This document shows, in pieces, positions 8,353 through 36,789 of a DNA stretch of 56,371 bases. The position numbers were made by a program, and so were the translations under genes. This DNA comes from Anaerolineae bacterium (GTDB lineage: Bacteria; Chloroflexota; Anaerolineae; Aggregatilineales; UBA3940): assembly GCA_016926255.1 (NCBI GenBank), contig JAFGOY010000042.1, positions 1 through 56,371 of the forward strand. The letters are read 5' to 3'. The notes below the pieces were generated by a model that saw only the letters and a list, made by a program, of their open reading frames with translations, was not told the DNA's origin and searched no databases. Numbering within the stretch: the first letter of the stretch is position 1; the number at the start of each line of letters is the position of its first letter.

Positions 8353-8707
8353 AGGCTTATCTCGCTAAAAGAATGAAGGCTCCCACTCACCGACCCCGCG
8401 ATCATTATAGCCGCATGCACGCGATGTCACCACCCCTACCCGCGATTACATATTGTCAACACCATCTGAACAAGAACGTAAGGGGTTACTGACCGGGCCA
8501 GCCGCATTCGACAACCTGCGATATACCATCCGCCCACCAATCCATCTCAGATCATTTCCCTGTGATAGTTTGATCCCACAAATCAATAGGTATATGAACC
8601 CTGATTGCATCTTTTATCTCTGAAGATGCGTATACGGGATCGAGAGGGGCTGCTGACCAGGCCAGCCGCTCTCCGACAGCAAACACAACGCAAGAGGAGA
8701 CAGAGCC
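8353..8707. other. Divergent intergenic region with a 24-bp direct repeat
   Basis: This 355-bp gap separates the WD40 operon (minus) from the ABC permease (plus). No credible gene is seen. It contains an imperfect direct repeat: 8482-8505 and 8646-8669 share 21 of 24 bases around the core CTGACC-G/A-GGCCAGCCGC. The second copy is about 23 bases before the permease ribosome-binding site AGGAGA (8692-8697). The repeat could be an operator pair or a remnant of a duplicated leader. Confidence 0.6.
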
Positions 8708-12855: not shown

Positions 12856-15246
12856 ATGATCAATCCACAGTGGATCAAAGTCATCAATGATTTATGGGAT
12901 AACAAGGCCCGCACCATCCTGGTCGTGATCGCCATTACGGTCGGCGTATTCACGCTTGGCGGCGTCTTTATGTCCCAGGAAGTCATCATGGGGGATATGG
13001 CCTCCCAGTTCGCAGAAATCAACCCGGCCTGCATCGATCTCTATGTATCATCCTTCGACAACAGCCTTGTATCGGCGGTCAAGGGCATGCGTGAAGTCGA
13101 GGACGCCGCCGGAAGCACCAGCCTATCGGTAAAGCTGATCGCCTCAGACGGGACGATCTACAATACAGACCTGCGCGCCGTCGAAGATTACAGCCAGGCG
13201 ACTGTCAACCAGATCACGCCGCTCGAAGGGGCTTTTCCACCGATCAGGCGCGGCATTCTGCTCGAACGCACAAGCGTCGAATTTACCGGCGCGGAGATCG
13301 GCGATATGCTGGAAATCGAACTCCCCGACGGACAGCGGCGCGAAATCGAGTTCATTGGCACCGTCCACGATCTGAACGCCTTCCCCGCTTCGATGTGGCC
13401 GCAGCTGACCGGTTATGTATCGCTCGACACGCTCAAGTGGCTGGGTCATTCCGGTAGCTTCCACCAGTTATCGATTGTCGCCCCTCCTGAGGTGACAACG
13501 CTGCGCGAAGCGCAGGACCTTGCACAGGAAATCAAGACGCGCGTGGAACGCTACGGCTACACCGTTTACAACGCCTATGCCATCCGCCCCGGAGAACACT
13601 GGGCCGAAGAAACAACGATGGGCGTCATCACAATTCTGTCGATACTCGGCGTGTTCGCGTTGGGACTGAGTGCATTCCTGGTCGTCAATACGATCACCGC
13701 GCTGCTGGCCCAGCACAAACGGCAGATCGGCATGATGAAGGCGGTCGGTGCGACACGCAGGCAGGTTCTCAGCACCTACCTGACCATGGTCGCCGCGTTC
13801 GGCATCCTCGCGCTGGTGCTCGCGCTTCCACTTGGCGCAGGGCTGGCCTACGGCACCGTTCTTGCGGTGACAAAATACCTGAACCTCGAAATCGTCAATT
13901 TCCATATGCCGCTGTGGGTGGTCGGCCTGATGACCACCGCCGCGTTGATCGCGCCGCTGATCGCCGGGCTGTTTCCCATCATAGGCGGCACCCGGATCAC
14001 CGTACGCGAGGCGCTGAGCGATTACGGAATCAACGCGACGAAGAAATACGGGGTCGTCGACCGGCTGCTGACCCGGCTGCAGGGGCTGCCCCGCCCGACC
14101 ATGCTGTCGCTGCGCAACACCTTCCGGCGGAAGGGTCGGCTCTGGCTGACGCTGGGCACGCTGACCCTCGCCGGGGCGATGTTCATCTCCGTGCTCAACG
14201 TCCGGCAGGCGATGTTCGAAGTGCTGGACGAAGCGCTAAAGCTTTGGGGATACGACGTCGCCTTCTCGTTCGACAACGTGTACCAGGCCCGCAGTGTCGA
14301 ACGCGAAGCACAGCGTGTCGACCATATCACCGATATGGAAGGCATCTACGAGACAGCCGCCGACAATATCCGCGCGGACGGCAGTGAGGGGTCACGCATC
14401 TGGCTGCGCGGCGTCGATTATGATTCGCAGTTTGTGCAGGGCGCGTCGCTGGTCGAGGAGGGGCGCTGGCTCCAGCCGGGCGACAAAAACGCGATTGTCA
14501 TTTCGCTCGAATTCATAAAAAACGAGCCAGACTACCACGTCGGCGACGAGATCACACTCGATATGCAGGGCCTGGAACACGATACCACCTGGGAGATCGT
14601 CGGGATCATCAATACGCTGGGATCGTCGTCGGGCTACGTCAATTTCGATTACCTGTCACGGATCGACGGTCACCCCGGAGAGATCACCTCGTTCTTCGTC
14701 GGCATCGATCCAAACGATGCCGCGATGCAGGACGCGGTCGCCGAAGACATGGAAGACCGGTTTAAGCGGGCCGGTATCGGCGTCGATTACACCGAGGCCA
14801 ACCACACGATCATCGAGGCGAATACGGCCCAGTTCAATTTCCTCGTCTCGTTCCTGCTGGTCGCCGCCGTCATCCTGGCGATTGTCGGCGGGATCGGGCT
14901 GATGGGGTCGATGAGCCTTAACGTTCTGGAACGCACCCGCGAGATCGGGGTGATGCGCTCAATCGGTGCATCGACCGGGTCGGTACGCGGGATCGTCGTC
15001 GTCGAAGGGCTGGTGATCGGGGCGATCAGCTGGGCGCTCAGCACCGCGATCAGCCTCCCGGTGACCTATGGGTTCGGCATCGCGCTGGGCGTGGCCGTTT
15101 TCCAGTTTCCACTGACTTTCACCTTCTGGCCGCCGTCGGTACTGCTGTGGCTGCCGGTTGTGCTGCTGATTTCGATGCTGTCCAGTTTGCTTCCTGCCCG
15201 GCGTGCGGCTCGGATCAGCGTGCGCGAGGCGCTTGCCTATGAGTGA
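12856..15246 (+). CDS. FtsX/MacB-type ABC transporter permease
   Basis: This 796-residue protein has the same double-FtsX architecture as the permease at 8708: N-terminal helix after WIKVINDLWDNKARTILVV, a MacB-like outer domain, a core with HKRQIGMMKAVGATR, a second outer domain, and a core with LNVLERTREIGVMRSIGAS. It ends in RISVREALAYE. The start is set by GAGGGG 9 bases before ATG and by homology with the first permease; the open frame runs further upstream inside the ATPase gene, but that is a shadow. With the ATPase and the first permease it could form a heterodimeric exporter. A DUF433/PIN-like pair follows 86 bases downstream. Confidence 0.92.
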   Translation: MINPQWIKVINDLWDNKARTILVVIAITVGVFTLGGVFMSQEVIMGDMASQFAEINPACIDLYVSSFDNSLVSAVKGMREVEDAAGSTSLSVKLIASDGTIYNTDLRAVEDYSQATVNQITPLEGAFPPIRRGILLERTSVEFTGAEIGDMLEIELPDGQRREIEFIGTVHDLNAFPASMWPQLTGYVSLDTLKWLGHSGSFHQLSIVAPPEVTTLREAQDLAQEIKTRVERYGYTVYNAYAIRPGEHWAEETTMGVITILSILGVFALGLSAFLVVNTITALLAQHKRQIGMMKAVGATRRQVLSTYLTMVAAFGILALVLALPLGAGLAYGTVLAVTKYLNLEIVNFHMPLWVVGLMTTAALIAPLIAGLFPIIGGTRITVREALSDYGINATKKYGVVDRLLTRLQGLPRPTMLSLRNTFRRKGRLWLTLGTLTLAGAMFISVLNVRQAMFEVLDEALKLWGYDVAFSFDNVYQARSVEREAQRVDHITDMEGIYETAADNIRADGSEGSRIWLRGVDYDSQFVQGASLVEEGRWLQPGDKNAIVISLEFIKNEPDYHVGDEITLDMQGLEHDTTWEIVGIINTLGSSSGYVNFDYLSRIDGHPGEITSFFVGIDPNDAAMQDAVAEDMEDRFKRAGIGVDYTEANHTIIEANTAQFNFLVSFLLVAAVILAIVGGIGLMGSMSLNVLERTREIGVMRSIGASTGSVRGIVVVEGLVIGAISWALSTAISLPVTYGFGIALGVAVFQFPLTFTFWPPSVLLWLPVVLLISMLSSLLPARRAARISVREALAYE

Positions 15247-23286: not shown

Positions 23287-24951
23287 ATGGCAAATACCGC
23301 AAAACCATCAACGCACACACACGACGGGGAAAGGCCCAGCATGGGTATTGACGAATTTGCGGCCAAGGAAGAACAATCAGAGGGGAAAACCACCGGTCTT
23401 CTGTTCAACTGGCGGATTCGTCTCTCGCGGATATCCGATCCGGGTGAATGGATCGAGCTCGATCTAACCGAGGAAGCTATACTCGGCATCGGCGAGGGCA
23501 GCCCGGTCGCCCGGACACTCCAGCGGTTCGACGGCGAGCAGAAGGGTGTATCCCGGCAGCACGCGATCCTGAGGGCATCAGGCACTGAACTGTCGGTGGT
23601 TGACCTGGGCAGCACCAACGGTACGACGGTCAACGGGGAGCTCATCAAACCCGATTTACCCCACCCGCTGGAAGACGGTGACCGCCTGTCGCTGGGCGGC
23701 CTCGACCTGCTGGTCACGGTGATCGAGGGGATCAAAGGGCGGGTCAGGAGAAAAGATACCGTCGAACTGGCCGATGCCCTGGTGCAGATGGCAAAGGCGA
23801 TCACTTCCCACCTGGAACTGGAAGAGGTCTTCAAACAAGCGCTGGCGATGTCGATGAAACTGACCTCGGCAGGCGAAGCGGCGATCTGGCTGCTGGACGA
23901 AACCACTCACCAGTTATACGTCGAGGCCGGGGTTGGCCTCAACGACGACCATATCAAGAAACTGCGCGTGCCGGTCACAGGGAGCCTGGTCGGGGCGGCG
24001 CTGACCACCGGAAAACCGATCCGCACCAGCCGGAACATGACCGGGAGCGAGGTTAAGGTCAAGACTGGTTACGTGGTCGAGGCAGTGCTCTACATTCCCC
24101 TGGTGCATGGCAGCAACAGGCTGGGCGTCCTGGCCGCCGTTCACCGGGAGCAGGGTCACAACTTCAGCGAACGCGACGAACACCTGCTGGAAAGCATCGG
24201 CGATTTCACCGCGCTGGCCCTTCAAAACGCGCAGATGTACCAGAAACTACAAGAAGCGAGCCATCTCAAGCAAGAGATGATCCAGAACGTTTCGCACGAG
24301 TTCAGAACGCCGATCCAGTATATCCTCGGCTACACCGAACTGCTGCTGGAGGAAAAGGAAAGGCTCGACCCGGCGCATGCCGAATACGTAGAAAACCTGG
24401 CACACCAGACACGGCGGCTGACCTGGATGATGGACAATTTCCTGTCGCTGCAACTGGTCAACAGCATGGTGTCACAGCGCTTCCCATCGAACATTGGCCC
24501 GATTGTCGAGGGGGCAGTCGGCAACGCGAGGATGCTCTCACGGGAAAAGAAGATCACGCTTACCCACCATATCGACGCCAACCTGCCCAAAGCCTTTATC
24601 AGCCCAATGGGAATCTATCAGGTGCTCGACAACCTGATCGCCAATGCCTTGAAGTTCACCGAGTCCGGGGGAAGCGTCTCTGTTGCGGTGAAACACGATG
24701 AAAGAGGCGGTGCTATCACGGTGACAGTGACCGATACCGGCATCGGCATTGCCCCGGCTGACCACGCGCGCATCTTCGAGCGCTTCGTCCAGGTGGATGG
24801 ATCGAGCAGGCGAACCTATGAAGGCGTAGGCCTGGGGCTGACCGTCTGCAAGAGCATCGTCGAAGAACACGGCGGTCGGATCGGGGTAGAGAGCGAACTC
24901 GGCAGAGGCGCAATGTTCTGGTTTACCATACCTACCGACGACGGCGGTTAA
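23287..24951 (+). CDS. FHA-GAF sensor histidine kinase
   Basis: The 554-residue soluble kinase has an N-terminal FHA domain (about 45-145, with GVSRQHA and DLGSTNGTTVNG), a GAF domain (about 165-320), a HisKA dimerisation helix with phospho-accepting His337 in NVSHEFRTP, and a HATPase domain with NALKFTESGG, DTGIGIAPAD and GVGLGLTVCKS. No membrane segment is present, so it senses an internal ligand or binds phosphothreonine partners through FHA. No response regulator gene lies nearby. The ATG at 23287 is preferred over a long upstream extension that lacks domain character. It is likely first in an operon with the FHA protein and sigma-like gene. Confidence 0.9.
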   Translation: MANTAKPSTHTHDGERPSMGIDEFAAKEEQSEGKTTGLLFNWRIRLSRISDPGEWIELDLTEEAILGIGEGSPVARTLQRFDGEQKGVSRQHAILRASGTELSVVDLGSTNGTTVNGELIKPDLPHPLEDGDRLSLGGLDLLVTVIEGIKGRVRRKDTVELADALVQMAKAITSHLELEEVFKQALAMSMKLTSAGEAAIWLLDETTHQLYVEAGVGLNDDHIKKLRVPVTGSLVGAALTTGKPIRTSRNMTGSEVKVKTGYVVEAVLYIPLVHGSNRLGVLAAVHREQGHNFSERDEHLLESIGDFTALALQNAQMYQKLQEASHLKQEMIQNVSHEFRTPIQYILGYTELLLEEKERLDPAHAEYVENLAHQTRRLTWMMDNFLSLQLVNSMVSQRFPSNIGPIVEGAVGNARMLSREKKITLTHHIDANLPKAFISPMGIYQVLDNLIANALKFTESGGSVSVAVKHDERGGAITVTVTDTGIGIAPADHARIFERFVQVDGSSRRTYEGVGLGLTVCKSIVEEHGGRIGVESELGRGAMFWFTIPTDDGG

Positions 24952-24964
24952 AAACAACATTCGA

Positions 24965-25486
24965 ATGAAGAAATTCAACCCGGATATGACTATGACCAAC
25001 AACACCGACCCATATGAGGACTTCGATCACATAGACGCACTCAACACCGATCTGGCGGTATGGCAGGGCGTTCAAAACTGGCGGATCATCCTGGAGATCA
25101 ATGCGCCGCCTCCCAATATTATCGGATTGGATGTAAAATGGCCCTGTGCGATTGGCCGCTCAGACCGGTATACGCGGATACACCTGGATATTGACCTGAT
25201 GTCTCTCGGCGGTGATGCGCATGGCGTTTCGAGGCGGCACGCGGTGCTCCTTCCGCATGGAACCGGCCTGATGATTATGGATGTAGGAAGCACCAACGGC
25301 ACCTGGGTAAACGACACACAGTTGATGCCGGGCAAGCAGTATCCACTGGCAAAAGGGGATCACATCGAGTTCAGCACACTGAAAGCCACCGTCCGGTCGA
25401 TTGTCAGGCTTGAGGAAAGCCAGGCGGCTGGCTACAACACAATAGTGGCCCGCCCGAAGAAGAAAAACGGGACAGCTCATCGATAA
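24965..25486 (+). CDS. FHA-domain protein
   Basis: The 173-residue protein has a short acidic N-terminal segment and a single FHA domain. Its conserved residues are clear: a G-R strand (AIGRSDRY), H-G-V-S-R-R-H-A-V-L-L, and DVGSTNGTWVND, which bind phosphothreonine. A basic tail follows (RPKKKNGTAHR). It starts 13 bases after the histidine kinase stop. No ribosome-binding site is visible at this ATG, and an in-frame ATG at 24989 is an alternative. A role as an adaptor for a Ser/Thr kinase is inferred; one candidate is the kinase-cyclase fusion at 33228-36677. Confidence 0.82.
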   Translation: MKKFNPDMTMTNNTDPYEDFDHIDALNTDLAVWQGVQNWRIILEINAPPPNIIGLDVKWPCAIGRSDRYTRIHLDIDLMSLGGDAHGVSRRHAVLLPHGTGLMIMDVGSTNGTWVNDTQLMPGKQYPLAKGDHIEFSTLKATVRSIVRLEESQAAGYNTIVARPKKKNGTAHR

Positions 25487-25555
25487 CGCAGAACGGGTAA
25501 AGGCTGTCCGCAGTTCGTGAATTAGTTCGTCACGACTCATTGATTCGAGATAACT

Positions 25556-26194
25556 ATGGCAGCCGACGAGTTAAGCAGACAGCAGCAGTTGGCTTTCCAC
25601 CGCCGGATCGTCAGTAACGATCCGACGGCTTTTGCTGAGTTGTGTGAAATCGCCCTCCCCCATTTGATCACCTTTTTGGAGCAGGCTTTCCCAGGGCAGG
25701 ACGCCCACCAGCGCGAAACAATTGCCATCGACATTCTGCTCGATTACCGCCGCCGCACCGATCAATTCGACCCAAAGCGGCTCTCTCTATTTGCCTACCT
25801 GCGTATGGCCGCCAAGTACGACATGCTCAACCTGATTCGGAAAAACCAGCGCCGAGAACGGCATCTTGAACCCATTGATGGGGAATTTGTCGAACTTTCG
25901 GAATCAGACGGGAACCAATATCGAAGGGAAGAAACCCTTCAGGAATGGGTTGAACAGTACACCGATTTATCGTTACGAGAAATATTTGTAGAGGTAGAAA
26001 CCCAACTGGAGGACCCCGAGGCGCAAGTGCTGGTCATGATGCTAGAAAGAGTAAGGTCGACAGCCGAATACGCCGAGGTATTGGGAATAACCCAACTGGA
26101 TGAAACATCCCAACGCCGCGAGGTAAAACGGGTAAAAGACCGCATCATGAAAAGGCTTGAGCGCCTGGGTAAACGGATACGAACGTATCCATAG
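25556..26194 (+). CDS. RNA polymerase sigma-70-like (ECF-type) factor
   Basis: The 212-residue basic helical protein looks like an ECF-type sigma factor. The region-2-like stretch is FDPKRLSLFAYLRMAAKYDMLNLIRKNQRRERH (two parts, near residues 75-108), which has the aromatic and basic residues that bind -10 DNA. The region-4-like part around STAEYAEVLGITQLDETSQRREVKRVKDRIMKRL would be the helix-turn-helix. Similarity is diverged, so the call rests on layout and context. The next gene encodes a FecR-type membrane protein, the usual sigma-regulator pairing. It follows the FHA gene by 69 bases. Confidence 0.7.
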   Translation: MAADELSRQQQLAFHRRIVSNDPTAFAELCEIALPHLITFLEQAFPGQDAHQRETIAIDILLDYRRRTDQFDPKRLSLFAYLRMAAKYDMLNLIRKNQRRERHLEPIDGEFVELSESDGNQYRREETLQEWVEQYTDLSLREIFVEVETQLEDPEAQVLVMMLERVRSTAEYAEVLGITQLDETSQRREVKRVKDRIMKRLERLGKRIRTYP

Positions 26195-26245
26195 AGGGAC
26201 AGGTAGGGAGAGTCGATTTCGTGAGAATGGACCGAACACCAAGCT

Positions 26246-27427
26246 ATGAACAACCATCCCCTGAATAGACTGGCTGAAAAAGCCGGACAAGACCACGAAC
26301 TGATCGCCGCTGCAATCGCCCGGTACATTGATGCAACCAACGCAACCTGGGAACAGGCTGCGAGCAACCTCCACCTCAGCGGTGATCAGCTCTCCCACCT
26401 GGCACTATGCAGAATCCCTTCTGGCCCAAACAAACACGCCGACGCCGCGAAAATCGCTGCCTATACAGGCATCGATCAGCAGGCGCTGCTCCTGTTCCTG
26501 AATGCTTACGCACCGCCGTCGGTTGAGGAATTGCAACAAATGCAGATTCGTGAAGGTATCACAGGGAGGTTAAGGAATATCATGTCGAAGAATATTGCTA
26601 AATGGGCGCTGGCTGCGCTGGGGGTTCTCCTGGTTGCGGGTATGGTCTTTGCCCGCCCGGAGCGTCCACAGGCAACACTGGTCGTAAGTGAGGGCCAGGC
26701 GACTTTGTTACAAAGTCGTAATGTGGTATTTGGGCTGCGTTCGACAAACCAGGTCAACGTCGGAGCAGGCGATGCCATCGGCATACGGGAAGGCGACCGG
26801 GTCAGCATGGGCGAGGATGCTGTTGCCCAGCTTGTACTTGATGACGGCAGCACCGTCGACCTGTACGATGGAGCTGATGTCACCGTCGCCGAACTCGAAC
26901 TGGGGAAAGGCTACCAGGTCGAATTCGAAGTTCTCGCCGGACGAACTTATCATCGCGTCAAGCACATTCTCGGAATTGATGATATATTTAAGGTAAGCAC
27001 GCCCTCATCGACAGCGTCGGTGCGAGGGACTATGTTTACCGTCGAAGCCCTCAGCGCCGATGCGAGTTATTTCGCCTGTGACGAAGGCACGGTTGCCGTC
27101 ACGATGGGCGATCAGGAAGTCGTGCTCAACCCCGGCGAGGAAACCGTCGCGGCGGTGGGGCAGCCACTTGAGGCCAAACCGCAGGCTGAGGCCACGACAA
27201 TGGGCCTGACTATCGTCAGCCCGCTGTCACCGCCAGCGGCAGGGAGTTCCGTCGTCGTGTCGGGATATACTGCCGTGGGTTCATCGGTAACCATCGACGG
27301 GAACACAGTGGTGGTGGATGGCGATGGATACTTCGAAATTCAGGTCACCGCCGGAGAAGACCCGATCGTTATCATTTCGACCGATCCGAGCGGCGAGAGC
27401 GTCACGGCAGAAATATCGACAAAATAA
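26246..27427 (+). CDS. FecR-domain membrane protein, putative anti-sigma/surface signal
   Basis: The 393-residue protein has a helical N-terminal domain (1-110) that should face the cytoplasm, one membrane helix (about 117-136) and an external FecR domain (about 165-285) with V-S-x-G-D-x-V-x-x-G and the S-T-P-S-S-T-A-S-V-R-G-T strand. The C-terminal module (315-393) resembles an Ig/glucodextranase-B-like domain. FecR proteins pass an external signal to an ECF sigma factor, and a sigma-like gene lies 51 bases upstream. The N-terminal domain does not look like the known FecR anti-sigma helix and may be a lineage-specific sigma-binding domain. The 3' end overlaps the next long frame. Confidence 0.82.
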   Translation: MNNHPLNRLAEKAGQDHELIAAAIARYIDATNATWEQAASNLHLSGDQLSHLALCRIPSGPNKHADAAKIAAYTGIDQQALLLFLNAYAPPSVEELQQMQIREGITGRLRNIMSKNIAKWALAALGVLLVAGMVFARPERPQATLVVSEGQATLLQSRNVVFGLRSTNQVNVGAGDAIGIREGDRVSMGEDAVAQLVLDDGSTVDLYDGADVTVAELELGKGYQVEFEVLAGRTYHRVKHILGIDDIFKVSTPSSTASVRGTMFTVEALSADASYFACDEGTVAVTMGDQEVVLNPGEETVAAVGQPLEAKPQAEATTMGLTIVSPLSPPAAGSSVVVSGYTAVGSSVTIDGNTVVVDGDGYFEIQVTAGEDPIVIISTDPSGESVTAEISTK

Positions 27428-30400
27428 GGGCACAGAAAGCCGACCTGCCCGGTCGGCCCGGCGTACGTTAAAAATCAACAGTCTGACTCTGGCCGGTTTA
27501 GCGGTGCCCGTACTGCTTGCCGCAGCGACGGCGATCAACGGCCTGTCGAACCAACCGGCCTTGCAGGCTGGAACATGTGATATCGTATTGGAGCAGCATC
27601 AACTCGACACTCCTGAAGACGGGTGGATGCTGCTTTTTGTTACCAATGAGGACACGGCCAGCGTCACCATCGACAGGATGATGCTGAACTGGACTCAACC
27701 CCCCCAGCAGTTGGTGGGAATCTATATCCCGGCAGGGAATCAAGTCCTGGGCCTGCCTGCTAAATCACCGCCGGTGGACGCCAATATCGACAATACGACC
27801 ATCACAGCCGAAACGACGATCTCGCTGGAGTTTACGTTCACCAACCAGCCGTTCGGCAGCGATCTGGAAATTGAGTTTCTTACCACCGATCTGGAAACGT
27901 GCGGATTCACCTTCACGCCGGGCGAAAGCGCGCCCTGGGCGCAGGACGACAGCGCCCAGACGAACGCCGGTACGGACGTGGAAATTGATGTATTAGCCAA
28001 CGATATGCCCGGCAGTGAACCTATCGACCCGGCGACGGTGAACATCCCTACCGGGGAGGAACCAGCGCACGGATCGACGGTGATCGACCCGGTCAACGGG
28101 AAGATCACCTATACACCCACTCCTCCTGGCTGGGCCGGCAGCGACGACTTTAGATACGAAGTCTGCGATAACGGCACGCCTCAGCAGTGCGACACGGCAG
28201 AAGTGACCATCGAGGTGCTGCCCGGCTGCGACATCACACTGGAGGCTATCGACCGCGAGACACCGTGCTCAAGCTGCATCCGGTTCGACATCAGGAATAA
28301 CGACGCCACACCGGTCGTCGTCTATGGGTTACAGCCAGCAGTATGGAACCCATCTGACCAGGACCTGGACACCGTCGAGTTCCCCCACTGGACACCGGAT
28401 CGGGTCTGGGACGGCGATGTCGAGTCGCCTTCGGACCTTGTTTTCACCAGCGCGGTAACCCTCGGCGCGAACAATACCTATGAGATGGATATGGACTGGC
28501 AGAACTCCGCTCCGCCTGCTGGTCCGTTCTCCTTTGCCTTCGATACCAACCGGGGCACCTGTCTGATCGAAACGGGCGCGACGGCCCCGGACGCAAACGA
28601 CGACACAGAAACCACCGATGAGGATGTCAATGTCGACATCGACGTGATCGCCAACGACACCGACTTCGAGGACAATCTCAACCCGGACTCGGTGACGGTG
28701 ATCAGCGGGCCGACCAACGGCACGGCCACCCCACACAGTGACGGAACCGTCACCTATGACCCGGATTTGAACTTCAACGGAACAGATACCTTCGAGTATC
28801 AGGTTTGCGATACCACCTCCCTGTGCGATACAGCAGAAGTTGAGGTAACGGTCGACCCGGTCAACGACCCGCCGGTTGCCAATGACGACACGGCCAGCAC
28901 TCTGGTGGATACCCTGGTCAATATCGACGTTCTGGACAACGACAGCGACGTTGACGACGATCTGTACACCGACGGCACTATCATCGTGTACAATACTCCC
29001 GACCACGGCGCGGCAACTGTGCTGGGCAATAATACCATCGATTATACCCCCGCACCGGGTTACACCGGCCTCGATGAATTTGAATACCGGATTTTCGATG
29101 ATGCCGGAGAGTCTGACACTGCGACGGTAACCATCGACGTGGGGTCAAGCAACAACCCACCCACCGCAAACGACGATACGATAAATACCAACGAAGATAC
29201 CCCGGTCAACGATTTCGACCTGACGGCCAACGACAGCGACGACAGCAGCCTCGATCTTTCCACGCTGTCGATCCTCGACACGCCGGATCATGGGACGGTC
29301 ACCAATAACGGCGATGGTACGGTGGACTACACCCCGGATACAAACTACAACGGGACGGATACGTTTACCTATCGAGTCTGCGATGACGATCCGACGACGC
29401 CGCTCTGCGACAGCGCAACAGTTGACGTAGACATCAACCCGGTGAACGATGACCCGGTTGCCAACAATGATTCGGCCTCGGTCAACGAGGATTCCAACGT
29501 CGTGTTCAACGTGCTGACAAACGACACCGACATCGACGGGAACCTGGATACCGGCTCGGTGACGATAACCGACACCCCCGACAACGGCACGCTGACGTCA
29601 ACCGCGCCCCCCGACGGGGAATATCGCTATACACCGGCTGCCAACTACAACGGCGGTGACAGCCTGACCTATGAGGTTTGCGATGATGACTCCGCCTGCG
29701 ATACGGCCAACGTAACGATCACCGTGCAGGCGGTCAACGACCCAATCGATGCCAACCCCGATTCGGCCACCACCACCGAAGACACGAACGTGACGATCAA
29801 CGTGGCGGCCAACGATACGGATATCGACACCAATCCGGCCCATGCCAGGAACCTGGCAAGCGTGACGCTGACCAACGGGCCGTATCACGGCACGGGGACT
29901 CCGGATGGCAGCGGCAGGGTAGTCTACAACCCAAATACCAATTACTCCGGCGGCGACAGTTTCGTCTACCGGATTTGCGATTTCGGTGGAAGCTGTGACA
30001 CAGCCACAGTGTCGATCACCATTACCCCGGTGAACGATCCGCCAGTTTTGGGCAACGACACGGATACCATCGACGAGGACAGCGACACCACCATCGACGT
30101 GCTGGCAAACGACATGGACCCCGACGACGGGTTAGACCTCGACACACTGCGCATCACCAACAAGCCAGACGACGGCAGTGCGTCGGTTCGCAGTGACAAC
30201 CGCATCAGATACGAACCGGACAAAAACTTCTACGGGATCGACGAGTTCACGTACGAGGTCTGTGATTATTCCGGCCAGTGCGAAAAGGCCGATGTGGTGA
30301 TCACCGTTACCGCCATCGACGATAAGCCAAAGGCCAAAGACGACACGGCGACGACCAAACCCGCGACGACGGTGGTGATCAAGGTACTCAACAACGACGA

Positions 30401-31562
30401 CGACTCCGACGAAGACGACTTCGACCTCGATTCGCTGCGGGTCACCAATAAGCCCGACGACGGCGACTTCAAAATCGACGAAGACAAGGGGACGATCAGC
30501 TACGATCCGGACAACAAGTTCGTCGGCACGGACGAGTTCGAGTATGAAATCTGTGACGATGCCGGGCAGTGCGACCGGGCCGACGTGAAGATCACCGTCG
30601 CCCAGAACACACCCACCCCTACCCTGAGACCGACCGCCACCGACATTCCCACCAGGACGCCGACGCCGACCAGGACACCAACGCCGCTTCCAACCAGCAC
30701 GCCGGTGCCCGGTGGGGTCGAGCCGGAGCAGCCCTCCGGACCGCCGCCTGCTGCCCCTGAAAGCCAGCAGCCAACCGCCACGCCAACGGCGACGGTACAG
30801 GCAACCACTGAAGGCGAGGAAACAGAAGAAGAAGTCCAGCCCGGTGAAACCGGCGGAGAACCCGCTCCCGAAGGACGCTTCGATATCCAGATGGCCCCCA
30901 GCGCAATCGAGATCACACCGGGGGGGAGCGTGATCGTCCACGCGACGATCCGCAATATCGGGGCAGCTACCCTGACCGGGATCGACGCGGGGATGGCAAT
31001 CAGCGGGCCGGGGTCACTGGAACAGGTCACCATCTCAGACGGCCAGCTGGATGTCGGCGATGACATGACCCACTGGCTGATCAACTCGCTGGCTCCGGGC
31101 GACTCGGCAATAATCCAGCTTCAGCTCCGGGCAAACAGCAGCGCGATTGGGACGCTGGTGACCTGTGCCACCGTCCACGCCGATCAAGCCGCCGAACTGA
31201 GCGTCTGCAAGAACGTGCTGGTGCGGGGTGTAGCGGCGGAGGAACCGGAGACAACCGGCAAGGAACAGCCGCCGCGCATCGAGCCGGGGGCCAACGGCGA
31301 TATCAGCTTTGAGCCGTCACTGCCGGAACCCTATATCGAGGTATCCGAGGCACGCTATATCGGCGATCAATGCCTGCAAGTGCTGGGCATGACGATCACC
31401 TGCATTCCACTGGTGCGCTGGTGGCTGCTGCTGCTCGGATTATTGACCGCCGCGCTGGGTGCCTTCCTGTTCTTCTCGGTATCGGATCGGGACGAGAGAG
31501 GCGAAGACCGGGCAGCACGGGATGATCGCCAGGAAGACGACGTGTTCGGGAATCTCTTCTAG
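27318..31562 (+). CDS. Giant cell-surface protein with eight Big_9/cadherin-like repeats
   Basis: The frame encodes up to 1414 residues. After a basic segment and a signal-like helix (INSLTLAGLAVPVLLAAATA) come eight modules of about 95 residues that open with A-N-D-D-S/T and contain D-V-L-A-N-D-x-D, the bacterial Ig/cadherin-like pattern with many putative Ca2+-binding Asp. A Thr/Pro linker follows (near 30600-30840), then a DUF11-like domain, one C-terminal membrane helix (WWLLLLGLLTAALGAFLFF) and a charged cytoplasmic tail. It is a likely adhesin or cell-envelope receptor. The start is uncertain: the only ATGs (27318 and 27324) lie inside the end of the FecR gene, and no ATG, GTG or TTG suits the signal peptide after base 27427. 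Confidence 0.85.
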   Translation: MAMDTSKFRSPPEKTRSLSFRPIRAARASRQKYRQNKGTESRPARSARRTLKINSLTLAGLAVPVLLAAATAINGLSNQPALQAGTCDIVLEQHQLDTPEDGWMLLFVTNEDTASVTIDRMMLNWTQPPQQLVGIYIPAGNQVLGLPAKSPPVDANIDNTTITAETTISLEFTFTNQPFGSDLEIEFLTTDLETCGFTFTPGESAPWAQDDSAQTNAGTDVEIDVLANDMPGSEPIDPATVNIPTGEEPAHGSTVIDPVNGKITYTPTPPGWAGSDDFRYEVCDNGTPQQCDTAEVTIEVLPGCDITLEAIDRETPCSSCIRFDIRNNDATPVVVYGLQPAVWNPSDQDLDTVEFPHWTPDRVWDGDVESPSDLVFTSAVTLGANNTYEMDMDWQNSAPPAGPFSFAFDTNRGTCLIETGATAPDANDDTETTDEDVNVDIDVIANDTDFEDNLNPDSVTVISGPTNGTATPHSDGTVTYDPDLNFNGTDTFEYQVCDTTSLCDTAEVEVTVDPVNDPPVANDDTASTLVDTLVNIDVLDNDSDVDDDLYTDGTIIVYNTPDHGAATVLGNNTIDYTPAPGYTGLDEFEYRIFDDAGESDTATVTIDVGSSNNPPTANDDTINTNEDTPVNDFDLTANDSDDSSLDLSTLSILDTPDHGTVTNNGDGTVDYTPDTNYNGTDTFTYRVCDDDPTTPLCDSATVDVDINPVNDDPVANNDSASVNEDSNVVFNVLTNDTDIDGNLDTGSVTITDTPDNGTLTSTAPPDGEYRYTPAANYNGGDSLTYEVCDDDSACDTANVTITVQAVNDPIDANPDSATTTEDTNVTINVAANDTDIDTNPAHARNLASVTLTNGPYHGTGTPDGSGRVVYNPNTNYSGGDSFVYRICDFGGSCDTATVSITITPVNDPPVLGNDTDTIDEDSDTTIDVLANDMDPDDGLDLDTLRITNKPDDGSASVRSDNRIRYEPDKNFYGIDEFTYEVCDYSGQCEKADVVITVTAIDDKPKAKDDTATTKPATTVVIKVLNNDDDSDEDDFDLDSLRVTNKPDDGDFKIDEDKGTISYDPDNKFVGTDEFEYEICDDAGQCDRADVKITVAQNTPTPTLRPTATDIPTRTPTPTRTPTPLPTSTPVPGGVEPEQPSGPPPAAPESQQPTATPTATVQATTEGEETEEEVQPGETGGEPAPEGRFDIQMAPSAIEITPGGSVIVHATIRNIGAATLTGIDAGMAISGPGSLEQVTISDGQLDVGDDMTHWLINSLAPGDSAIIQLQLRANSSAIGTLVTCATVHADQAAELSVCKNVLVRGVAAEEPETTGKEQPPRIEPGANGDISFEPSLPEPYIEVSEARYIGDQCLQVLGMTITCIPLVRWWLLLLGLLTAALGAFLFFSVSDRDERGEDRAARDDRQEDDVFGNLF

Positions 31563-31587
31563 CACATTACAGTCAATCGGATTGACA

Positions 31588-31626
31588 GGCGGGCGACGAC
31601 CTATGGTTGTACAGCCCGCCTTTTTT
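31588..31626 (+). terminator. Terminator after the giant surface protein gene
   Basis: GGCGGGC pairs with GCCCGCC across a 19-base loop, followed by six T. It lies 26 bases after the stop codon and separates the giant protein gene from the bactofilin-like gene. Confidence 0.8.
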
Positions 31627-31788
31627 GTTGGCCTGCCTGTATACCGATTCACCCACATTCCAGGGGGGAAAACAGATCGGCGATTTGCTAGAATCACTGA
31701 TGGGTCGCCCACCGGCCAAACGTGGCCATCGGGCGCTGCATTGTTGTTTCACTGTTTACATTTCCAGGGGAATGAGAGGGATAAATTC

Positions 31789-33144
31789 ATGACTCGCAAG
31801 TTCAAAAGAGTGCTGCTCCCCGTACTGATCGGCGTGGTGGCACTGGCATTGCTGGCTGCCGCACCGGTCGGCGCGGCTGAGACGATCACCGGAGATGCAA
31901 TCACCGTCGACGAGGATATCGAAGACGATCTATACCTGTTCGGGCAGACGATCACCATCGACGCAGTGGTTGATGGCGACATCGTGGCTTTCGGCTCGAC
32001 ATTGACGATCAACGGTACCGTTACCGGGGACGTGCTTTTCTTCGGGCAGGCTCTCGTGCTGAATGGCACGGTCGAGGATGATGTGCGCGGCGCAGGAAAC
32101 ACGCTCATCCTCGAAGCAGGATCACAGGTTGGAGGCGACCTCGTGGCGGCAGGTTATGCCGTCGAAATGCGCCCCGGCAGCAGCGTCGGCAATGACGTGC
32201 TGGCCGGAGGCGGGCAGGTACAGTTGGCCAATGTCGGCGGCGACCCGAACTTAAACGCAGGGTCGGTGCGGATCGTAGGTGTGGTCGGCGGAGACGCCGA
32301 TATTTCGGTGAGTGAGGCCGGTACGCCCATGTTCAACCCGGCGATGTTCATGCCTTCCAGCGTGGGCGTCCCGCAGACATCAACGCTGCCCGGCGGGCTG
32401 ACTTTTTCTGACGAGGGGATGATCAACGGCGACCTGACCTATCAATCGGAGAGTGAACTGGCTGTCCCCGAAAACCAGGTCGGAGGGAAAATCTCGTTTG
32501 AGAAGATCGTGACAGAAGAATCGACGCCGCAGCAGCAGATGTTGAGATTGATCCGCCGCTTCGCCGGGCGGTTCATCGGCAGTTTCCTGGCCCTGATGCT
32601 GGTCGGCTGGCTGATGGTGCGCTTCGCGCCGCGCCTGGTCGAAAAGCCACTTGAGACACTGCGTGAGCGCTGGGCGGCAAGCCTGGGCGTCGGGCTGCTG
32701 GCCTATCTTGCTTTCTGGTTCGTGATATTCGTGCTGTTCATCGTGATGATTCTGACTCTTATCGCGCTGTCGAACCTGAAAATCCTGTCACGCTTTGTCG
32801 GCGCGCTGGCGCTGCTCGGCGGCGGGACGGCCACCCTGTTCATCTTTACAACGCGCTGGCTGGCGCTGATCGTCGTTGCGCTGCTGATCGGCAGATGGAT
32901 TTACAAGACCCCGACTGAGGGGAAAGAAATGCTGTCGACTGTCGCAGCGCTGGCGATTGGGCTGGCGATCCTCACGCTGGTGCTTGCCGCGCCGGTTCCT
33001 GGCTTCGGCCTGATCGGGCTGCTGGTCAGTTCGATCGGGTTGGGTGCGGTTGTGCTGGCGTTCTGGCCGCGTAAGGAAAAAGACGCGGGCGAACCGGCGA
33101 AGCCCGCATCGGGGCCGGAGGCGGATGTTGCCCCGGTGGAGTAA
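31789..33144 (+). CDS. Bactofilin-like beta-helix protein with C-terminal membrane helices
   Basis: The 451-residue protein has a signal peptide (RVLLPVLIGVVALALLAAAPVGAAE) and then a repeat-rich beta-helix with V-x-G-D-I/V and N-G-T-V-x-G-D-V rungs typical of polymer-forming bactofilins. From about residue 245 there is a basic segment and about five membrane helices. A short charged tail follows. Bactofilins normally lie in the cytoplasm, so here the beta-helix is probably outside the membrane. AGAGGG lies 8 bases before this ATG; a long open frame upstream overlaps the terminator and is not real. It may organise the cell envelope together with the surface proteins next to it. Confidence 0.83.
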   Translation: MTRKFKRVLLPVLIGVVALALLAAAPVGAAETITGDAITVDEDIEDDLYLFGQTITIDAVVDGDIVAFGSTLTINGTVTGDVLFFGQALVLNGTVEDDVRGAGNTLILEAGSQVGGDLVAAGYAVEMRPGSSVGNDVLAGGGQVQLANVGGDPNLNAGSVRIVGVVGGDADISVSEAGTPMFNPAMFMPSSVGVPQTSTLPGGLTFSDEGMINGDLTYQSESELAVPENQVGGKISFEKIVTEESTPQQQMLRLIRRFAGRFIGSFLALMLVGWLMVRFAPRLVEKPLETLRERWAASLGVGLLAYLAFWFVIFVLFIVMILTLIALSNLKILSRFVGALALLGGGTATLFIFTTRWLALIVVALLIGRWIYKTPTEGKEMLSTVAALAIGLAILTLVLAAPVPGFGLIGLLVSSIGLGAVVLAFWPRKEKDAGEPAKPASGPEADVAPVE

Positions 33145-33174: not shown

Positions 33175-33212
33175 AAAGAATATGCTGCGCAGTCTTGCGC
33201 AGCATATTCTTT
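33175..33212. terminator. Bidirectional terminator between convergent genes
   Basis: A perfect 17-bp stem starts AAAGAATATGCTGCGCA, has a GTCT loop and is followed by T-rich sequence on both strands. It sits between the stop codons of the bactofilin-like gene and the kinase-cyclase gene. Confidence 0.85.
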
Positions 33213-33227
33213 ATTTTGCACTCACAC

Positions 33228-36200
33228 TCACAGCGGCTCGGTGGCAGGAAGCAGACGATACACGTCAATCGGGGCGACCTTACCGGGAAGCGCCAGCGGA
33301 TCGACCGGCTCGGCGGCAATGACCTCACCGCTCCGTTCGACGGTCACCCGGCCTGCCAGCATCTGCCCGGAATCCGCCAGCAGCGAAAGCTGGGAAGCGA
33401 TCTCGACCGCGTCGCCAAAGACGGTGACATCGCTGCGCTGTGCGGATCGGGAATACGACACAACCGCACGCCCGGTGTAGATTCCATAGCTGAGAGTGAT
33501 ATCACGGTGGATATCGGCGGGGGGCAGCGATTTTCGATACCTGTCCAGCGAACGGGAAACCTCAAGCATGGCCTTCAACGCCAGACTGGGATGTGTGGGC
33601 TGGGCAAGTGGTGCATTGAAGACGGCGGTCAGGTGATCCCCGTCGGCCTGGACGACCATCCCCTCCGCGTTGACAATCATCCCGGAGATCTTCGCCAGGA
33701 TATCGTTGACAGCCTCCAGCGCTTTGTCCGGGAGGTGCCGCTCGCCGAATTCGGCAAAATTGCGAACGGAGGCAACCAGAACGGTGACTTCCTGCACCTG
33801 CCCCTCCAGGCTGATCTCGCCATCCTGCAATGCCTGGAGAGTCGCCCGCGCCACGCGGGGCTGCACACGATTCTCGAACATGCTCAGGAACTCGCGGCGC
33901 TCGCGGATTTCCACCGAGAGATGGTAGATCGTCACCAGGATGAAAACCAGGCTGATGACGAGAACAGGATAGAGAAGGCTCAACAGTATTCCCCAGGCAT
34001 CGAAAAGCAGCATCGCCAGGACGAAATAGAGCAGTATCTCGCCGACAGCCAGAAGCAGACCCAGCCAGGGACGCGCGTTGAGCACCAATGCGGTGATCGC
34101 CCCCAGGCCGACCAGGATCAAAACCTGCACCCAGAACGCAGGCAGCCGGATAAACCGCTGTGACCAGACCGTCTCAATCGCATTAGCCAGCACCTCGACG
34201 CCAAACATCGGGCGGCCAGCATCGCTGACCGGGGTGAGGTACTTATCCGGCTCGGCGGTTGCCATCACACCGACCAGCGCGATCTTACCTTTGAACAGGG
34301 CCGGGTCGAAATCACCGGAAAGCACATCCCGGTAGCTGACCATGTTGAAGGTCTGCTCACTCTGGCTGGCGGGCGGCCCGGCAAAGTTGATCCTCATCTC
34401 GCCCCAGGTACCGACCGGAATGGAACGCCCGGCCATGTCAAGCGACTGGTCAAGGGAATTGGTAGGCACGGTCACATCGCCGGTCAGGTAAAGGCTGATA
34501 GCGGCCAGCGGCAGGCTCAGATAGCGCCCGTCATCAACGTGGATCAGTGAGGGCATGGTACGAATAGTGCCATCGGGATCGTGCAGAATGTTGGTATGTC
34601 CAAGAGCCGCACTCGATTCGCGGAGCACCGCCTGCGGCTGGACAGCGTTCTCAAAATCGATGATTCCAAGGGTACGGTACAGGGCATCGCCTTCGCCAAG
34701 CACCGGCTGTAAGACCGCGCCATGTTCTGCCATTGCCTCGGCCAGTTCAGTGTCATCTTCAGTTGCGGTAGCAAACGTCACGTCGAACGCAATCACCTTC
34801 GCGCCCGCCGCTTCAAGCTGGCGAATCAGTTCGGCATGGAGCGAACGGGGCCAGTTCTCCCAGCGGCCATACTCAGACAGGGAGTCATCGTCAATGGCGA
34901 CCAGGGTGGTGATTCCGCTGACGTCGTAAGGCGCGAACAGGGCATCTCTCAGGAACAGGTCTTGTGTATACAGAACACGCCAGTTGACGAGCAGCGCGAC
35001 CGCCACGCCGACAATGAGACCGATCAGGAGGCGCACCCAGGTTCGGAGCACCCGCACCATGAGCGCGGTCTGCCACAGGCGTTGAAGCCACCCTTGCAGC
35101 CGGAAGCGTGGGGCAACACTTTCAGGCCAGCGCCCAATTCCGTCCCTGATCTCCAGCGCCGCCGACCAGAAATGTCGGTCATGCTGTTCGCGCTCCATGA
35201 TATACTTGAAGGCAGTTTCTGTTCCCAGGCGGCCCAGCAGACGCGCCACCCGACGCGACAGGCTGTCGTCGGTCAGGGCCAGCCCTGCCAGCTCCCGGTC
35301 GGCTTTTACGCTGATCGCTATCGGCTGCCAGTCCTCCTGCTGGGGAAAAATCTGCTCAAGCACCGAGAGGGCATCGCCCCTGACTTTAAGACTGTTGTGA
35401 TTGACACAAAAATCGACCAGCCGCTCAAGTCCAGGCTGGGTGAACCAGTCCTTCTTCACACCGGTATCGACCGCCAGCAGTGAAAGCAGCCGCTCGATAA
35501 CAATGTCGATCCCATCTTCCATAACCTGCCTGACCACACGGATCCGGGCTTCCGGTTCATCGGCCAGCCGGTGCCACCACGTGTCGAAATGGTAGTCGTG
35601 GAGCAGAGCAGCCTGGAGGATAAACGCGCTCTCCGAGGTAGTCAGTGTCAGGTTGAGGCGATTGGCATGCTGGTAGACCGAATCGATCAAAACGAAATGC
35701 GTCAGCCGGATCGACAGGGGATCGCCGGGTTCGGTGTTGACAACATGATGCTTCAACAAAACACCGGCTTCCTGAATGTCCTGCGCAGGGCCGGTCAGGA
35801 TCGGGACTGGTTCAGGCATCAGCGACTGGGTATCGCCAATCGCCCTGCGGATAATGTCAAGCGCCTCCAATGCCGTTGCGGGCCGGTCGGCGGCCTTGTA
35901 TGCCGTCAGCTTATGGAGGGCATTGGTCACCCGGTCGGGCAGATCGGGGTTGAATTCGCGGATATCGGGCAGTTCGACATCCGAATCGATCTGCATCAAG
36001 GCGAGCGATGTATCGCCATCCCAGGGGAGATTGCCGGTGAGCATCTCGAAGAGCATTACGCCCAGCGAGTAAATATCCGACTGCGGGGTAATCTGCTGCT
36101 TGAGGTGCTGCTCCGGGGGAGAATAGGGCGCGGTGCCGTGCCCGGTATGGAGCGCTGCGGTGATATCGGGGAGCAGCCGCGCCAGGCCGAAGTCAGAAAT

Positions 36201-36677
36201 ATAAACCCGCCACAGGGTATCGAGCAGAACGTTGCTCGGCTTGAGATCGCGATGGACGATTCCATGCGTGTGAATATAATTGAGCGCCGCGACGATCTGC
36301 GAGGTAAAGCGCAGCACATCCTTCGGGAACATCGGGCCGTTGATCAACAGGTCGGCAATCGACCCGCGTGAAACGTAGCGCAGCACAAAAAGATAGTGCT
36401 GCTTGGTACGGCCAAATTCGTAGAGGGGCAGAATGTTGGGATGCGAAAGACTGGCGACGAGATGGGCTTCTTTCTGAAGCATCTGGTAGGCGACCGAATC
36501 GGTCGCGCCGACGCTTAACGGGATTGCCCTGACGGCGACGACGCGCTCCCGTTCACGATCCCAGGCCGACCAGATATTGGCCTGCCCGCCGACGCCGATT
36601 TGCTCGAGCAGGGTATATGCGCCGAGCAGATAGCCGGCGGTGAGCTTATCAGAATGTATCAGACTGTGAGTATCCAT
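33228..36677 (-). CDS. Ser/Thr kinase-like, CHASE2 and adenylate-cyclase-like fusion
   Basis: The 1149-residue protein has an N-terminal kinase domain (about 20-280), a helical middle region, one membrane helix, an external CHASE2 sensor, three membrane helices and a class III cyclase-like domain. In the kinase, HRDLKPSN and SDFGLA are intact but the ATP-anchoring Lys is Arg50 (VVAVRAI). In the cyclase, the first metal Asp is Ser (VLVASVRNF), the purine-binding Lys is Gln (VVQADGD), the transition-state Asn is Glu and the Arg is Gln (GDAVEIASQL). The product may be a pseudoenzyme or an unusual enzyme. The ATG at 36677 is preferred to a TTG 21 codons upstream because a TATAAT box lies between them. 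Confidence 0.88.
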   Translation of the reverse strand: MDTHSLIHSDKLTAGYLLGAYTLLEQIGVGGQANIWSAWDRERERVVAVRAIPLSVGATDSVAYQMLQKEAHLVASLSHPNILPLYEFGRTKQHYLFVLRYVSRGSIADLLINGPMFPKDVLRFTSQIVAALNYIHTHGIVHRDLKPSNVLLDTLWRVYISDFGLARLLPDITAALHTGHGTAPYSPPEQHLKQQITPQSDIYSLGVMLFEMLTGNLPWDGDTSLALMQIDSDVELPDIREFNPDLPDRVTNALHKLTAYKAADRPATALEALDIIRRAIGDTQSLMPEPVPILTGPAQDIQEAGVLLKHHVVNTEPGDPLSIRLTHFVLIDSVYQHANRLNLTLTTSESAFILQAALLHDYHFDTWWHRLADEPEARIRVVRQVMEDGIDIVIERLLSLLAVDTGVKKDWFTQPGLERLVDFCVNHNSLKVRGDALSVLEQIFPQQEDWQPIAISVKADRELAGLALTDDSLSRRVARLLGRLGTETAFKYIMEREQHDRHFWSAALEIRDGIGRWPESVAPRFRLQGWLQRLWQTALMVRVLRTWVRLLIGLIVGVAVALLVNWRVLYTQDLFLRDALFAPYDVSGITTLVAIDDDSLSEYGRWENWPRSLHAELIRQLEAAGAKVIAFDVTFATATEDDTELAEAMAEHGAVLQPVLGEGDALYRTLGIIDFENAVQPQAVLRESSAALGHTNILHDPDGTIRTMPSLIHVDDGRYLSLPLAAISLYLTGDVTVPTNSLDQSLDMAGRSIPVGTWGEMRINFAGPPASQSEQTFNMVSYRDVLSGDFDPALFKGKIALVGVMATAEPDKYLTPVSDAGRPMFGVEVLANAIETVWSQRFIRLPAFWVQVLILVGLGAITALVLNARPWLGLLLAVGEILLYFVLAMLLFDAWGILLSLLYPVLVISLVFILVTIYHLSVEIRERREFLSMFENRVQPRVARATLQALQDGEISLEGQVQEVTVLVASVRNFAEFGERHLPDKALEAVNDILAKISGMIVNAEGMVVQADGDHLTAVFNAPLAQPTHPSLALKAMLEVSRSLDRYRKSLPPADIHRDITLSYGIYTGRAVVSYSRSAQRSDVTVFGDAVEIASQLSLLADSGQMLAGRVTVERSGEVIAAEPVDPLALPGKVAPIDVYRLLPATEPL

Positions 36678-36713
36678 ATTTTGACTGGTCACTTTGCCTA
36701 AAGCGTTGCGCTC

Positions 36714-36719
36714 ATTATA
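36714..36719 (-). promoter_or_regulatory. -10 box of the kinase-cyclase gene
   Basis: A perfect TATAAT on the minus strand lies 37 bases before the chosen ATG. Transcription would start near 36707, downstream of the alternative TTG start, which supports the shorter protein. No good -35 hexamer is seen. Confidence 0.45.
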
Positions 36720-36789
36720 CTCGTGTTGCGATGGATACAATAGTCAGGGGTCTGCCCATAACCGGCATACTGAAACAATGAGAGGCACA

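Follow-up and report, generated by a model that had tools for sequence, protein, structure and literature searches.

We analysed a 56,371-nucleotide (nt) stretch of DNA from an Anaerolineae bacterium (Chloroflexota), hereafter the window, which is the whole of a 56-kb contig (JAFGOY010000042.1, C67) from a genome of 4.61 Mb and 96% completeness (GCA_016926255.1, G000). It encodes a divergent sigma factor and, directly after it, a membrane-spanning FecR protein, in the company of a large surface protein and a kinase with a CHASE2 sensor domain. With middling confidence, we read this arrangement as a transmembrane sigma switch joined to a FecR/CHASE2 envelope-sensing module, the output of which probably includes the surface protein. 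Loci and genomes used for comparison carry the prefixes L and G.

Six genes lie on the forward strand in the order histidine kinase, FHA protein, sigma factor, FecR protein, Big_9 surface protein and bactofilin-like protein. This order had been proposed in a first-pass annotation of the sequence, and a check of open reading frames (ORFs) and Pfam matches found it to be real. Convergent with this forward-strand unit, and beyond the region covered by that annotation, is a gene for a Ser/Thr kinase (STK) joined to CHASE2 and cyclase-like domains. The features that bear on the proposed switch are as follows (TM, transmembrane; HTH, helix-turn-helix; HMM, hidden Markov model; ECF, extracytoplasmic function).

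24965-25486, +, FHA-domain protein, candidate phosphothreonine reader (Pfam FHA, 6.5e-15)
25556-26194, +, divergent sigma-70/ECF-type sigma factor (TIGR02937; AlphaFold2 model; Foldseek; homologues)
26246-26590, +, HTH-like cytoplasmic domain of the FecR protein, signature LALCRRP, proposed to hold the sigma factor (reciprocal HMMs; HTH_31 within the family; weak CapH fold match)
26591-26662, +, TM helix of the FecR protein, residues ~116-139, with a conserved A-[QR]-P directly after it (hydropathy; AlphaFold2 helix 117-134; alignment)
26780-27190, +, extracytoplasmic FecR domain, residues ~180-315 (PF04773, E 3.3e-10; fold matches)
27200-27427, +, Ig-like domain at the C-terminus of the FecR protein (Glucodextran_B match at E 0.001, under the cut-off; AlphaFold2 beta strands 335-387, low confidence)
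27318-31562, +, giant surface protein, start codon uncertain (Big_9, E 3e-142, 8 stretches; DUF11, 8.9e-5, just below cut-off; TM segments; relatives at L111 and L112)
33228-36740, -, STK-CHASE2-adenylate/guanylate-cyclase-like protein (Pkinase 2.5e-47, CHASE2 1e-49, Guanylate_cyc 5e-10)

Sigma factor and FecR protein

The product of 25556-26194 had been called sigma-like. It had no Pfam match at E 0.01, and the NCBIfam sigma70-ECF model TIGR02937 matched it with 38.5 bits (E 8.7e-10), below the model cut-off of 42.9. In the AlphaFold2 model (pLDDT 87.7, 25 sequences aligned), the 212-residue chain consists of two helical domains, sigma2 (~8-103) and sigma4 (~128-208), separated by a disordered or flexible linker; neither sigma1.1 nor sigma3 is present, as in ECF sigma factors. 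The best PDB matches found with Foldseek were ECF sigma factors or sigma-RNA polymerase complexes, SigE-ChrR being the first, with no match past E 0.001. Whole-chain TM-scores were low, probably owing to movement of the two domains about the linker. In region 2.2 the acidic character is partly kept (DAHQRETIAID in the window) without a full DAED motif. Judged by its sequence and model, the protein is a divergent sigma-70/ECF-type sigma factor, so that the sigma domains expected of it do exist. A scan of genome contigs with the single sequence was empty, and an alignment-based scan yielded 25 sigma loci. Inspection by eye upstream of the sigma genes gave no convincing common promoter motif.

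The FecR protein (26246-27427) crosses the membrane once, with a cytoplasmic N-terminus and a FecR/CSSD-type domain outside. This ectodomain matches the PupR CSSD (6ovk) and a Bacteroides anti-sigma factor (4m0h/4m0n) at Z ~9. Residues 1-110, on the cytoplasmic side, are HTH-like and are not a classical anti-sigma domain: HTH_31 was matched in 7 of 24 family members (best E 4e-7), and similarity to the CapH fold was weak (Z 3.7) and insufficient alone. FecR proteins are established regulators of sigma factors, and their cytoplasmic part binds the sigma factor. We infer that the HTH-like domain binds and inhibits the adjacent sigma factor. The two genes are adjacent in all nine genomes of the sigma clade, namely the window and eight other Chloroflexota (L030-L037).

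FecR is mostly taught in the context of bacteria that have an outer membrane, as a component of their TonB-dependent iron signalling. The first-pass annotation had argued that FecR serves another purpose here, which agrees with the lack of any TonB-dependent receptor (PF00593) match in the 96% complete genome, given that positive controls gave matches. Site-2 proteases of the M50 family, which could release a membrane-held factor, are present in this genome, as in all control genomes.

CHASE2 kinases and the surface protein

Genes for STK-CHASE2-cyclase proteins occur beside FecR in the window and at L016, L018, L019 and L111, and STK-CHASE2 genes at L143 and L152. In addition, FecR directly precedes a gene for a CHASE2 histidine kinase or a CHASE2-cyclase at L144, L145 and L146. 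Approximately 10 of the 21 FecR loci show this linkage; a rough binomial estimate, for loci that are not fully independent, is <1e-10 even at a chance of 2.5% per locus. FHA genes also recur beside FecR or the STK (L016, L019, L111, L143 and L152). The STK-CHASE2-cyclase protein is the best candidate for a phosphothreonine writer and also a candidate envelope sensor, and the phosphothreonine input suggested earlier now has a linked candidate writer. FecR-CHASE2 pairs have been described in other bacteria (PMC5192318), and in our loci they return without any adhesin; this makes the CHASE2 kinase a likelier partner of FecR than the adhesin.

Several of these loci differ in their details. FecR proteins beside STK-CHASE2 genes at L019 (12403-13632), L152 (8924-10138) and L143 (9014-10099) have a signal or TM segment only and no cytoplasmic domain; in passing, they may be read as CHASE2 partners without a sigma output. 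At L016, a SulP-type transporter with STAS and cyclic-nucleotide-binding domains (6253-8496) lies between the STK-CHASE2-cyclase gene and the sigma-FecR pair, and is a possible target of the cyclase.

Within the same class, canonical ECF sigma genes are followed by FecR at L145, L149, L150, L151, L153 and L155, several of them with DUF11/Pro-rich surface proteins or CHASE2 kinases nearby. At L145, L149, L150 and L151, the FecR protein carries Ig or DUF11 domains and is followed by a DUF11/Pro-rich surface protein or a CHASE2 kinase; L145, L149 and L150 are canonical ECF-FecR-DUF11 surface-protein operons. These four loci, together with the DUF11-like domain in the window protein, suggest that the placing of FecR and sigma genes next to surface-protein genes is a repeated pattern in the class.

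The surface protein of the window has a signal or TM segment (51-77), eight Big_9 repeats, a Pro/Thr-rich spacer, a DUF11-like domain and a C-terminal TM segment (1355-1390). With tandem repeats, signal and C-terminal anchor, it resembles large Big_9/cadherin-like surface proteins, and its role in adhesion is putative. The anchor has a two-cysteine TxTCxP..R[WY] pattern that is the same in the window, L111 and L112. The small or overlapping gene spacings described previously were found upstream, with gaps of 13 nt (histidine kinase to FHA gene), 69 nt (FHA to sigma gene) and 51 nt (sigma gene to fecR). The start of the surface-protein gene is less certain: from its only ATG codons, it would overlap fecR by ~100 nt, and the canonical codon that follows them is GTG 27504. 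Hairpins separate fecR from the surface-protein gene in the window (27439-27457) and at L111 (~14656-14763), where a promoter-like element, TGATACAAT, follows. This L111 hairpin and element imply that the surface-protein gene may have its own promoter.

Two genomes of the window's family contain related arrangements. In G005 (L111), a contig-cut fecR, a gene for a 1067-residue Big_9 protein and an FHA gene share one strand and are convergent with an STK-CHASE2-cyclase gene; in G006 (L112), a Big_9 gene is convergent with the same type of kinase. Both surface proteins were identified by Pfam Big_9, BLAST and direct reading of the sequences. Identities to the window are only ~28-41%, which argues against recent duplication or copying. 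The conserved unit was found by tracking the kinase rather than the C-terminus of the surface protein. This unique C-terminus had no match in 198 other genomes of the class, a misleading result, since neither G005 nor G006 was in that sample and this part of the protein changes rapidly.

The sigma/HTH pair in M78/HerA cassettes

The HTH-like domain also occurs as a free-standing protein. An HMM built only from FecR-fused copies found every free-standing partner, each encoded directly after a homologous sigma gene, and nothing else among all locus ORFs, and a reverse HMM built from free-standing copies recovered all the fused ones. These reciprocal matches identify the sigma-HTH pair as a shared unit that is inherited together. 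The FecR-type sigma factors form one clade (support 100/99) in an unrooted tree, which does not give the order in which the FecR and free-standing versions arose.

Free-standing pairs belong to a cassette with the gene order sigma, HTH, M78 (IrrE-like) protease, p415 and HerA ATPase (L038-L050, L053 and L054; for example L040, 9980-14975, and L042, 9992-14881). Contigs are cut after the HTH gene at L052 and within the protease gene at L039. Cassettes were detected in Chloroflexota, Thermomicrobiota, Deinococcota, KSB1, Planctomycetota, Thermodesulfobacteriota and Pseudomonadota. The sigma and HTH genes are tightly coupled or overlapping, and the M78 gene, the best PADLOC match of which is capP, is present at free-standing-HTH loci wherever the contig extends far enough. 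No M78 protease gene is present in the window operon, and none was found at L030-L037. An LxAARD-type motif near the C-terminus (~residues 103-117) occurs in 16 of 16 aligned free-standing HTH proteins (L038-L050, L052, L053 and L024) and in none of the FecR-fused copies. The joint occurrence of motif and protease suggests that LxAARD is a candidate site of M78 cleavage.

For p415, there was no Pfam, PADLOC or credible PDB match, and a search for it in the window's own genome, run without a control, was empty; a NurA-like role can be guessed by analogy, because of its HerA neighbour only. The cassette-type sigma factor of L053 had no match in a plasmid collection. DNA-methyltransferase-like genes adjoin ~10 cassette loci, and several have CRISPR repeats or cas-like genes, as read by eye. 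The cassette is a candidate for an uncatalogued defence system under sigma/protease control, probably one directed against phages. The HTH-type partner looks like an undescribed sigma-regulating domain that has moved between a membrane sensor and this probable defence cassette.

A wider reading, which we put forward tentatively and doubt somewhat more than we credit, is that an XRE/HTH-like domain governs this sigma family as a portable switch. In the cassettes, M78 would cut the HTH protein near LxAARD, freeing the sigma factor for HerA-based defence; in Chloroflexota, where the HTH domain is fused to TM-FecR, a CHASE2 STK/FecR complex would free it for the expression of surface proteins.

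CapH/CapP, ImmR/ImmA and DdrO/IrrE likewise combine an HTH-like partner with an M78 protease. In modules of the CapH, ImmR and DdrO type, the HTH protein itself is the repressor, whereas the HTH protein of the present family has a sigma factor as its partner, and the window version has neither an adjacent protease gene nor the LxAARD tail.

Proposed mechanism, alternatives and neighbouring genes

In the mechanism that we favour, the HTH-like part of the adjacent FecR protein would hold the sigma factor at the cytoplasmic side of the membrane, and the FecR ectodomain would work outside the membrane with the CHASE2 sensor of the STK/cyclase protein. An envelope change could alter the FecR-CHASE2 complex and so free the sigma factor, while the kinase may phosphorylate threonines that are read by FHA proteins. 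The freed sigma factor would transcribe its targets, among them most likely its own operon and thereby the Big_9/DUF11 surface protein.

Several observations weigh against this mechanism. At L143 and L152, the kinase gene is accompanied by a FecR gene whose product lacks a cytoplasmic domain and which has no sigma gene beside it, which implies that the sigma and kinase modules are separable; at L017, L020 and L021, no kinase gene was seen in the flanks read around the sigma-FecR pair. Eight of the nine genomes (Ardenticatenaceae-like; L016-L021, L036 and L037) have no Big_9 gene next to the pair. The sigma factor was not convincingly found in G005 (80% complete), the contig of which ends within fecR, or in G006 (75% complete). 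Finally, the HTH-like fold could bind DNA instead of the sigma factor.

This last point leads to an alternative in which sigma factor and HTH domain are a split promoter-recognition factor, with the HTH as a DNA-binding co-regulator that the membrane anchor positions or restrains. Similarity to HTH_31 and HTH_3, the weak match to the CapH DNA-binding domain and the tight coupling of the two genes in cassettes agree with it; we consider it unlikely, as Pfam HTH matches are mostly weak and the FecR proteins already established as sigma regulators act via their cytoplasmic part. Direct switching of the sigma factor by Thr phosphorylation from the neighbouring kinase, with FecR as no more than a scaffold or positive factor, has a precedent in ECF43 (EcfP-PknT; PMC8999054), and it fits the nearby kinase gene, the incomplete DAED and the Thr close to this stretch in most FecR-type members. 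It is nonetheless improbable: unlike in ECF43, a candidate for holding the sigma factor is always adjacent, L032 has no Thr at the site, acidic residues remain there, and no kinase is among the cassette genes read.

The surface-contact sensing envisaged in the first-pass annotation would cast the Big_9 protein in the role that FecA plays towards FecR, namely as a sensor or ligand for the FecR domain. The adjacency of the two genes in the window and L111, and the missing TonB receptor, are in its favour. A neighbourhood search for the proposed sigma/FecR/Big_9 triple gave a divided answer, with the sigma-FecR pair in nine of nine genomes and FecR-Big_9-FHA in L111, but no Big_9 gene beside most pairs; a giant adhesin as FecR partner is therefore not general. 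Since CHASE2 is also a far more frequent companion of FecR than Big_9 is, we think this explanation improbable as well. Least credible, and in our view very improbable, is that the sigma-FecR pair is real and the surface protein, FHA and kinase genes are unrelated local neighbours. The sigma-FecR loci L017, L020 and L021, which have none of the three, would suit it; the joint presence of FecR, surface protein, FHA and kinase in L111 at only ~30-41% identity, which speaks against recent copying, and a FecR-CHASE2 linkage far above chance, would not.

Both halves of the favoured mechanism have known counterparts, FecR with an ECF sigma factor (FecI-FecR; Leptospira, PMC12155086) and FecR with CHASE2 (PMC5192318). 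Like the FecI-FecR(-FecA) systems (E. coli FecR, Pseudomonas PupR/FoxR), the window has an ECF-type sigma gene beside that of a one-TM FecR protein with an ectodomain of the PupR/BDI_1681 fold. It differs in the lack of a TonB-dependent receptor, in an HTH-like cytoplasmic part of ~110 residues, and in its Big_9/DUF11 and CHASE2 kinase neighbours. In Leptospira, the ECF sigma factor of the LIC_12757/LIC_12756 pair is reported to be bound by a FecR-like regulator with anti-sigma activity (PMC12155086). That system belongs to a diderm pathogen and has a short cytoplasmic segment (1-73), and the text read mentions no CHASE2 kinase or Big_9 link. BiofilmReg of Burkholderia is a FecR-CHASE2 operon controlling biofilm (PMC5192318), in which a CHASE2 sensor kinase and a FecR-domain protein are likewise linked genetically; its FecR domain is fused to LysM and its output is a two-component pair, whereas the window has an STK-CHASE2-cyclase protein and a FecR protein that reaches through to a sigma factor. 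Two known kinds of signalling, sigma/FecR and FecR/CHASE2, thus seem to be spliced together here. In the open-licence papers searched, we found neither the HTH-type sigma partner, nor its shared use by M78/HerA cassettes, nor a combination of the two modules, so an earlier description is possible. FecR-sigma pairs tied to CHASE2 STKs and surface proteins, in a lineage in which no TonB receptor was found, hint at a general role of FecR.

The remaining features of the forward strand are given below.

23287-24951, +, soluble FHA-GAF-HisKA-HATPase histidine kinase (Pfam FHA, 2e-14, GAF, HisKA, HATPase_c; no TM segment; intact H-box HEFRTP)
31587-31621, +, probable intrinsic terminator closing the operon, GGCGGGC...GCCCGCC followed by T6 (fold z -3.6)
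31789-33144, +, bactofilin-like multi-TM protein, separate unit (PF04519, 22.7 bits against a cut-off of 27.9)

The histidine kinase gene is probably the first gene of the operon. It was rejected as a core member of the system, as homologues in relatives are located elsewhere, with no sigma gene nearby. The bactofilin-like gene, also counted as a member earlier, was excluded because the terminator precedes it and it is missing in L111 and L112. A strong symmetric hairpin between the convergent transcripts (33175-33213, z -5.4 on both strands) is probably a bidirectional terminator. Elsewhere in the same genome, a paralogous FHA-GAF protein is encoded on contig C38 (L110, 3941-8355), divergent from another Ser/Thr kinase gene.

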